The notes under the pieces are model-generated. The model was not told the origin of the DNA. It saw nothing but the letters and a program-made list of their open reading frames with translations, and made no database searches. A stretch of 64,000 nucleotides of DNA from positions 186,001 to 250,000 of the forward strand of contig CALUYO010000001.1 of assembly GCA_944325005.1 (NCBI GenBank), written 5' to 3'. Positions 39,091 to 63,691 of the stretch are shown here, piece by piece (position 1 is the first letter of the stretch; each line of letters begins with the position of its first letter). The translations under genes were made by a program, and so were the position numbers. This stretch comes from Candidatus Gastranaerophilales bacterium (lineage in GTDB: Bacteria; Cyanobacteriota; Vampirovibrionia; Gastranaerophilales; Gastranaerophilaceae).

Positions 39091-39119
39091 TTGAAAACTG
39101 ATTGAAATTCTGGTATAAT
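39091..39119 (+). promoter_or_regulatory. Strong promoter of the first poly-G prepilin gene
   Basis: TTGAAA (39091-39096), 17 bases and TATAAT (39114-39119), with an extended -10 TGG directly ahead. Transcription should start near 39126, 26 bases before the ATG. Confidence 0.8.
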
Positions 39120-39151
39120 ATAAATGTTACATATTAAGAAAAGGAGCAGTT

Positions 39152-40002
39152 ATGAAAAGTTTTCTAAAGCAAATTGATGCTGAAGTTTTGCGGACAGAGC
39201 AAAATGTATGTGTCTATGCGTGTAGTGCTCGGGGGGGGGGCAGCTAGCAGCTCCTCATAAGGGTTATACGCTTGCAGAGGTTTTGATTACTCTTGGAATT
39301 ATTGGTATTGTTGCGTCGCTTACAATGCCTGCGTTAATTGGAAATTATAGAAAAAGCCAAACGGTTACACAGTTGAAAAAGGCTTATTCAGAGTTAAATC
39401 AGTCTGTAAAAATTTCTGAAAATGAATATGGAACAATGGATACATGGGATTTTTCAAGTTTTGATAATGCTCTGGTAAGGGCCGATTATTTTTTTCAAAA
39501 CTATTTATCTCCTAATATTAAAATCTTAGAGATTTGTTTTCCTTCTTCAAGTACCTGCTGGGAAGATACATATACTTTAGACGGAACTAAGAGTTATATA
39601 AACAATGATGATAATGATGGTAAAATGTCTTTTGTTACCACATCAGGATATTCTGTTTATTTCTGGGTACATGGAACAGGTGACGGAGGATGGTTCTGGA
39701 TTGATATAAACGGAGCTAAAAAACCAAACGTAATGGGTAAAGATGTTTTTCCTTTTATAATGACATGGGGCAATGGTAAAGGAGATGACTACTGCGATAC
39801 TAAAAAACTAGGCTTATTTCCGGCTGGATTAGATTGCCAAACGTCATTATTGTCTCGTGACGATTTGATAAACGGGACAAGTGTAACTCAGGCAAAAGGG
39901 TTTAATTGTAAAAAAGGTGCAGGTGCATCCAGAGCAGGTGGATTTTGTGCTGCTTTGATTATGTTTGATGGATGGCAGATTAGTAAAGATTATCCGTGGT
40001 AA
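39152..40002 (+). CDS. Prepilin-like gene interrupted by a poly-G tract (out of frame as assembled)
   Basis: The ATG at 39152 has AAGGAG five bases ahead and a strong promoter. Translation runs MKSFLKQIDAEVLRTEQNVC and on to a run of ten G, then hits TAG at 39245. With 11 (or 8) G the frame joins QLAAPHKG-YTLAEVLITLGIIGIV, the prepilin cleavage site and helix, and continues to 40002, giving a 283-residue prepilin. An automatic call would begin at the TTG at 39283 and lose the cleavage site. The C-terminus is CAALIMFDGWQISKDYPW, as in the prepilins at 1840 and 62952. Probably phase-variable; a sequencing or assembly error in the G run is the main alternative. Confidence 0.85.
39231..39240 (+). 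repeat. Poly-G(10) tract in prepilin leader
   Basis: Ten consecutive G in an AT-rich genome, coding a Gly run just before the conserved LAAP segment and the prepilin cleavage motif. As sequenced it leaves the downstream frame off by one base. Confidence 0.95.
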
Positions 40003-40010
40003 ATAAACTT

Positions 40011-40046
40011 AAAAGGCTTTCATATTATTATATGAAAGCCTTTTCA
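40011..40046. terminator. Terminator between convergent genes
   Basis: A perfect 14-base stem, AAAAGGCTTTCATA / TATGAAAGCCTTTT, with a six-base loop. It serves the prepilin gene and, by symmetry, the convergent hypothetical gene ending at 40084. Confidence 0.85.
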
Positions 40047-62935: not shown

Positions 62936-62951
62936 ATGAAAGGAGCGCTGT

Positions 62952-63691
62952 ATGAAAGATTTATTTAGGAATTCCGGGGGGGGGGCAGTTTAGCAGCTCC
63001 TAAAACAGGTTTTACACTTGCAGAGGTTCTGCTTACTCTTGGTATAATCGGAATAGTTTCCGCATTAACAATGCCGGTATTAATAGGAAATTACCAGAAG
63101 AGACAAACCGTAACGCAGTTGAAAAAAGTCTACTCTGAATTATCTCAAGCCGCTGCTATGGCTACTTTAACTTATGGAGATATGGAAAACTGGGACTATT
63201 CAATGGCAGGGCTGGATTTTTTTAACAAATATTTTACCTCCTTTATGAACATATCTCAAACTACAGTTGGAGATGTAAAAGATACAGGTATTACTTATCT
63301 TCAAGTATCAGGTAAGCCGGAAACAGGTTTAAAATTGATGAAAGATTCCGGTAATATAATAACTTTACCCTCCGGCTCACAAATTTTTGTTACTCCCGAA
63401 ATTAGCAGCACTAATATTGTCACATATAAAGCTTTTGGTGTTGATTTGAATGGCTTTAAAAAACCAAATAAATTTGGACGAGATTTATTTTTATTTTCGA
63501 TATCTAAAAAAGGAGTATTACCATATCATATGGATGATGGTGAGTCAACAGAAGTTGAGCGTGATAGAGACGAGCTTTTGAATGGACCGAGTGATCATAG
63601 TTATCAATGTAACAGAAGCGGACGCGGAATGTGGTGTGCCGCAGTAATAATGATGGATGGCTGGGAAATTAAAGATGATTATCCATGGTAA
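62952..63691 (+). CDS. Prepilin-like gene interrupted by a poly-G tract (out of frame as assembled)
   Basis: The ATG at 62952 has AAAGGAG ahead (62938-62944). Translation gives MKDLFRNS then ten G and stops at TAG (62991). With 11 (or 8) G the frame becomes Gly-run, SLAAPKTG-FTLAEVLLTLGIIGIVS, a canonical prepilin site and helix, and runs to 63691 (246 residues). The C-terminus CAAVIMMDGWEIKDDYPW matches the other two prepilins. As in the gene at 39152, the assembled length is one G short of the in-frame length. Convergent with mutL; the two stops touch. Confidence 0.85.
62976..62985 (+). repeat. Poly-G(10) tract in prepilin leader
   Basis: Ten G immediately followed by C-AG-TT-TAGCAGCTCCT, nearly the same flank as at 39231-39240. 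Confidence 0.95.

Follow-up and report, generated by a model that had tools for sequence, protein, structure and literature searches.

A likely slipped-strand switch in a prepilin leader of a Gastranaerophilales bacterium, one of about 100 poly-G loci

Poly-G and poly-C loci of Campylobacter, Helicobacter and Neisseria carry a homopolymer of about 8–12 G or C near the 5´ end of the coding sequence, with stops in the OFF frames. They lie in surface genes, several of them for glycan enzymes, and many occur per genome. These traits of contingency loci, as compared here, are common background and are also covered in a review (PMC11868660). In Neisseria, a poly-G tract is found in the pilus-assembly and adhesin gene pilC (Jonsson 1991, cited in PMC5084427), and type IV pilus expression is switched by frameshifting at this tract. 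The pilC tract lies near the signal region. A different route to variation of the pilin surface through a genomic repertoire is taken by pilE/pilS antigenic variation in Neisseria and by pilin inversion in Moraxella, both of which act by recombination (PMC11868660). The same recent review raises the question of why pathogens alone seem to have genomes rich in phase-variable loci (PMC11868660).

The tract described here belongs to a system that operates in the manner of the homopolymer contingency systems of Campylobacter or Neisseria and, judged by those features that could be tested, is one, with reversible switching at a high rate being inferred. It shares the traits listed above with those loci, the poly-G frameshift and the tract position near the signal region with pilC, and a genomic repertoire of type IV pilin surfaces with pilE/pilS and Moraxella. 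It differs from the poly-G/poly-C loci in that a large prepilin family is the main target, with one common OFF-at-ten/ON-at-eleven setting, and in that the strand of the tract is fixed by the direction of replication. The host is an apparent gut commensal lineage in a Cyanobacteriota group, and MutS is present in the genus, so that loss of mismatch repair does not explain the inferred switching. Whereas pilC is an accessory adhesin gene in one or two copies, about 80 pilin-like subunits themselves carry the switch here and, unlike in pilE/pilS and the Moraxella inversion, each locus is a complete gene of its own with its own frame switch. No paper joining Gastranaerophilales with phase variation was found in the literature searched. 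The finding thus consists of about 100 poly-G loci, mainly on pilin subunits, in an apparent gut commensal among the non-photosynthetic relatives of cyanobacteria. If switching is confirmed, some 80 fibres would be switchable and each cell would carry a random selection of them, with bearing on adhesion, phage escape and interaction with the immune system.

The prepilin genes of the window

The window is the whole stretch of DNA that was analysed, 64,000 nucleotides in length. It contains exactly two G runs longer than six, at 39231–39240 and 62976–62985, each within the leader of a prepilin gene, and a further prepilin gene without a tract. The features are as follows.

39091–39119, + strand: sigma-70-type promoter, TTGAAA-17-TATAAT, with extended -10 (TG before the -10); 11/12 matches
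39141–39146, + strand: Shine-Dalgarno sequence AAGGAG, by direct reading
39152–39230, + strand: ATG (39152–39154) and 5´ part of the leader peptide, 79 bases
39231–39240, + strand: G10 tract with C on either side; OFF at 10, ON at 11 or 8
39241–39256, + strand: 3´ flank of the tract, CAGCTAGCAGCTCCTC, resembling the flank common to the tracts of the genome
39245–39247, + strand: TAG stop, reached with 10 G
39258–39260, + strand: TAA stop, reached with 9 G
39262–40002, + strand: prepilin, with processing site G^YTLAEVLITLG (39262–39285 region) and body including the stop
40011–40044, + strand: intrinsic terminator
62940–62945, + strand: Shine-Dalgarno sequence AAGGAG of the second putatively switched prepilin
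62952–62975, + strand: ATG and leader of the second putatively switched prepilin
62976–62985, + strand: second G10 tract; OFF at 10 (TAG at 62991–62993), ON at 11 or 8
63008–63691, + strand: second prepilin, G^FTLAEVLLTLG and body (DUF6613, PF20318)
1840–2520, + strand: third prepilin, without tract; plain in-frame leader MLIHKRLAFTLAEV (tract-free control)

The first-pass annotation had described a run of ten G at 39231–39240 behind an extended -10 promoter, AAGGAG and ATG, and this was confirmed base for base. Its frame logic also held: the codons at 10 G are CGG GGG GGG GGC AGC TAG, with the stop at 39245, at 9 G the TAA at 39258 ends the frame, and with 11 or 8 G the leader is joined to the prepilin, reading ...RGGGQLAAPHKG^YTLAEVLITLG... 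into the ORF ending at 40002. A caveat applies to the promoter scan, in which the total number of sites in the region was no higher than in shuffled sequences. The gene at 62952–63691 has the same OFF-at-10/ON-at-11 design. No in-frame start with a Shine-Dalgarno sequence was found between tract and cleavage site in either window gene.

The 11-G product of the 39152 gene matches Pfam N_methyl (PF07963) at 23.2 bits against a cut-off of 21.2 and has both parts of the class III N-terminal motif, G^[FY]TLxE and the hydrophobic helix following it. An AF2 model of the body encoded at 39262–40002 (pLDDT 84.7) has a helix at residues 3–49 followed by beta strands, and this predicted long N-terminal helix followed by strands is as expected of a pilin. 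For the globular part, no significant PDB match was obtained by either fold or sequence search.

Number, targets and frame setting of the tracts

The window belongs to a genome (G000, 2.0 Mb) with 102 G runs of 8 or more, against about 5.2 such runs, and about 0.19 runs of 10 or more, of G/C expected by chance in 2.0 Mb under a first-order Markov model. This fulfils the criterion of an SSR contingency locus that a homopolymer inside an ORF exceed chance length. Lengths were read from stretches around the tracts, which covered 92 of the 102 and left ten unread; 82 were of ten G, seven of 11, and one each of 8, 12 and 14. Starts and motifs were assigned by script.

Among the 111 prepilin genes of this genome (N_methyl matches), 81 carry a tract in the leader. 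Of the tracts, in turn, 81 out of 97 are in the leader of a prepilin gene, near the start codon. Others lie in surface-glycan genes, namely an epimerase (PF01370), a pyruvyl transferase (PF04230) and a GT-D glycosyltransferase (PF08759), so that location in genes for surface or host interaction, a second criterion of a contingency locus, is fulfilled by prepilins and glycan genes alike. The distance from start to tract is 21–30 bases in most loci, that at 39152, with 79 bases, being longer than usual, and the distance from tract to cleavage site is 15–126; all three phases occur. No stop within the body was recorded for any listed own-genome match. About 97% of the tracts have C on both sides, and the 3´ flank is self-similar across genes when read on either strand (z 3.9–9). 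The flanking C's and the 3´ flank common to both gene orientations could point to a cis requirement of unknown nature.

The frame setting is strikingly constant. Of the 73 prepilins in G000 scored at ten G, 69 are OFF and exactly one G short of the ON frame, in genes of either orientation (p ~3e-28 against an expectation of 1/3). Between ATG and cleavage site the frame is open in 72/78 at 11 G and stopped in 73/78 at 10 G, and a change of one unit thus shifts the gene between full-length and truncated frames, as is required of a contingency locus. The open frames at 11 G include leaders of more than 100 nt, and we conclude that selection keeps the ON frame. The same OFF-at-ten/+1 setting is found in 25/26 prepilins of two congeners (G138 and G073) and in 19/19 of another genus (g22). 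Where prepilins of relatives have 9 G, the ON frame is still at 8/11 in 10/12; where they have 11 G, 9/16 are ON. Since the ON frame is maintained while the modal state is OFF, ON must be reached often enough for selection to act.

Genes other than prepilins are set differently. Four of five with G10 are in frame at ten (the epimerase, the polysaccharide pyruvyl transferase, the GT-D glycosyltransferase and L091, of unknown family), and the fifth, L070, needs eleven; the share in frame at ten differs from that of prepilins with a Fisher p of ~5e-5. As ten is common to ON (glycan) and OFF (pilin) genes, we infer that length is set by mutation rather than by expression state, and that the reading frames are tuned to an equilibrium tract length, a tuning also indicated by the common OFF-at-mode setting.

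Variation and orientation of the tracts

Related copies are not uniform in tract length, which fulfils a further criterion of a contingency locus. Most of the genus members counted have their mode at 10, with 9s and 11s also occurring, and two paralogues with 11 G (L055, ON) and 10 G (L056, OFF) have identical 30-base upstream flanks and 120-base downstream flanks that are 99% identical. Together these observations probably reflect real change in length; no second strain of the 39152 locus itself was compared. The first-pass annotation had named a single length of 11 G in all reads and all relatives as the outcome that would reveal an assembly error, and in the relatives this was not seen. Its proposal of a slipped-strand switch, OFF as sequenced, is supported, while variation among cells of one population is not shown in the absence of reads. 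What goes beyond its claims is the scale of about 100 loci, the OFF-at-ten/ON-at-eleven setting that they share, the existence of homologues without a tract, and the link between orientation and replication.

Among homologues of the 39152 gene at 53–63% identity, those of two relatives (G153 and G154) have a forward tract, that of a third (G156) has a leader rich in proline, of the reverse type, and those of three more (G168, G158 and G159) have no tract and a plain in-frame leader. Most members of the home genus have a high CG10C count per genome (up to 165), and a few come near to zero (0 in G164, 2 in G149). Outside the genus the count is 59 in g22, in which the 3´ flank differs, low elsewhere in the family, and 0–3 in other families of the class. 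In G149, about 99 prepilin matches stand beside just two CG10C tracts, each at the end of a contig; this is a prepilin expansion without switches. Genus g41 (G123 and G077) has many G10 tracts of another type, CG10A/T. These tracts (CG10[AT], not strand-blocked) were left out of the pooled counts.

The tract in the GT-D gene (L076:1502, G000:C5:42578), a G10 in frame at ten, can be followed at the corresponding site of homologues, which read GGGGGAGGGA in G155, GGGGGAGGGG in G146 and GGAGCAGA in G153. With interrupted versions such as GGGGGAGGGG, or none, birth or decay of a tract is caught here, and the tract arose in place from native sequence resembling GGGGGAGGGG without change in length. 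Origin by insertion or from a mobile element, an idea raised by the recurrence of the 3´ flank in both gene orientations, is unsupported for this gene, the homologues showing origin in place.

The orientation of the tracts follows a strand rule. Neighbouring tracts on a contig of G000 switch strand in only 2/78 pairs, whereas the prepilin genes that carry them do so in 27/63 neighbouring pairs (shuffles averaged 21.7, none falling below 11). In the few-contig assemblies of G138 and G073, all 117 exact G10 tracts lie in strand blocks; in either genome, two contigs have one change of strand each. Such changes coincide with a change in sign of the T/A skew (examined in G138 and G000), which served as marker of the replichores; GC skew alone was set aside, being confounded by gene direction. 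The T-rich, G-rich strand that carries the G run is what we take to be the leading strand, which places the run in the lagging-strand template. Prepilin genes facing the opposite way carry C10 (29/81), with the same frame offset. In five genomes from two genera, among them G022 and G058 of g22, the replichore determines the orientation; G123 and G077 of g41, in which A or T follows the tract, do not obey the rule. In a limited search of the literature, no precedent for such a rule was found. The strand being fixed relative to replication, with C10 standing in for G10 in opposite genes, the genome provides a natural experiment on the replication strand responsible for slippage. Since the strand of the tract is tied to replication and indifferent to the direction of transcription and translation, replication slippage is favoured over RNA slippage or ribosomal frameshifting.

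Preferred reading and alternatives

We consider it likely (about 0.83) that the G10 tract is a slipped-strand phase-variation switch, one of approximately 100 loci, with the pilins OFF at the modal length. The sequence, the frames, the number of tracts, the length spectrum among species and the orientation are shown; the switch itself is inferred from sequence alone, as switching was not observed and no reads were available. In the proposed mechanism, the G run would occasionally gain or lose a base in replication. At ten, translation from the ATG would stop just 3´ of the tract and no prepilin would be made; at eleven or eight, the leader would be joined to the prepilin cleavage motif and the pilin would be made, the prepilin peptidase cutting off the glycine-rich leader. 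Through selection, the frames would have come to be OFF at the modal length in prepilins and ON at ten in several surface-glycan genes, and any one cell would make only a few pilins out of a large repertoire, in a changing selection. The run keeps to the strand with G>C and T>A, taken as the leading one, and opposite-facing genes for this reason carry C10. Switching within a population, processing by the peptidase and pilus function all remain inferences, without reads, RNA or protein data behind them. Against this reading stands the uniformity of the tracts at ten, which exceeds what a free random walk would suggest. We read the uniform ten as the mode or equilibrium of a length distribution; this is not proved, and whether the G000 assembly is from an isolate or a metagenome bin bears on it.

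One bolder possibility is that C-G10-C, together with the oriented flank, acts as a specific cis element, the length of which is held at ten by a process coupled to replication. Such a process might require the G run to lie in the lagging-strand template, and the repertoire would then be OFF by default and opened gene by gene by +1, as phase variation that is length-regulated rather than free-running.

Among the rival explanations, correction at the RNA level survives best, and is still unlikely. Here, a +1 slip of RNA polymerase, or a ribosomal frameshift of -1, on a fixed G10 would give some full-length prepilin. The near-uniform length, the stop soon after the tract and the identical one-base offset of nearly all genes speak for it. 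However, about one third of the genes have C10 rather than G10 in the mRNA with an identical offset, where G10 and C10 messages should differ under this explanation. Moreover, orientation is fixed to replication and not to transcription, 9s and 11s occur among relatives and recent paralogues, and 4/5 of the non-prepilin genes are in frame at ten.

We hold it very improbable that the tract was first a replication-oriented DNA element (a site of binding, priming or recombination), with prepilin frames evolving around C-G10-C and its 3´ flank. It would agree with the replichore-fixed orientation in both genera, the C on either side and the self-similar flank on both strands. Yet the concentration of 81/97 tracts in prepilin leaders near the start codon is unlike a genome-maintenance site, some members of the genus are almost without tracts (G164 and G149), the flank is different in g22, and the GT-D tract arose in place from native sequence, with no insertion.

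A systematic miscount in sequencing or assembly, with a true length of 11 and all prepilins in frame, is likewise very improbable. Homopolymers are error-prone and all prepilins are off by one in the same direction, but four of the five non-prepilin G10 genes would break at eleven, lengths of 9, 11, 12 and 14 were called in the same assembly or genus, and separate genomes of two genera agree on 10. Decay of paralogues into frameshifted prepilin pseudogenes with a mutational hotspot, suggested by most being out of frame as sequenced, is all but excluded by bodies that are intact open frames, by an open ON frame of the leader in 72/78 and by an offset identical in >94%.

A hairpin sequestering the ribosome-binding site (AAGGAGC upstream, GCTCC downstream) was considered and set aside; it was seen by eye in some loci and is absent from those in reverse orientation. 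Six long-leader loci elsewhere in G000 have an in-frame start with a possible Shine-Dalgarno sequence 3´ of the tract, and may escape the OFF state. In a long-leader class made up of L066, L074, L095, L110 and similar loci, the stretch between tract and prepilin holds a promoter-like TTGCAAAAT-TATAAT together with an MKKAFTL start in frame, as if a tract-bearing leader had been added 5´ of an older start. The leaders of L203, L215 and L220 contain short palindromic repeat-like sequences with the frame still open, and prepilin leaders may thus be tolerant of insertions.
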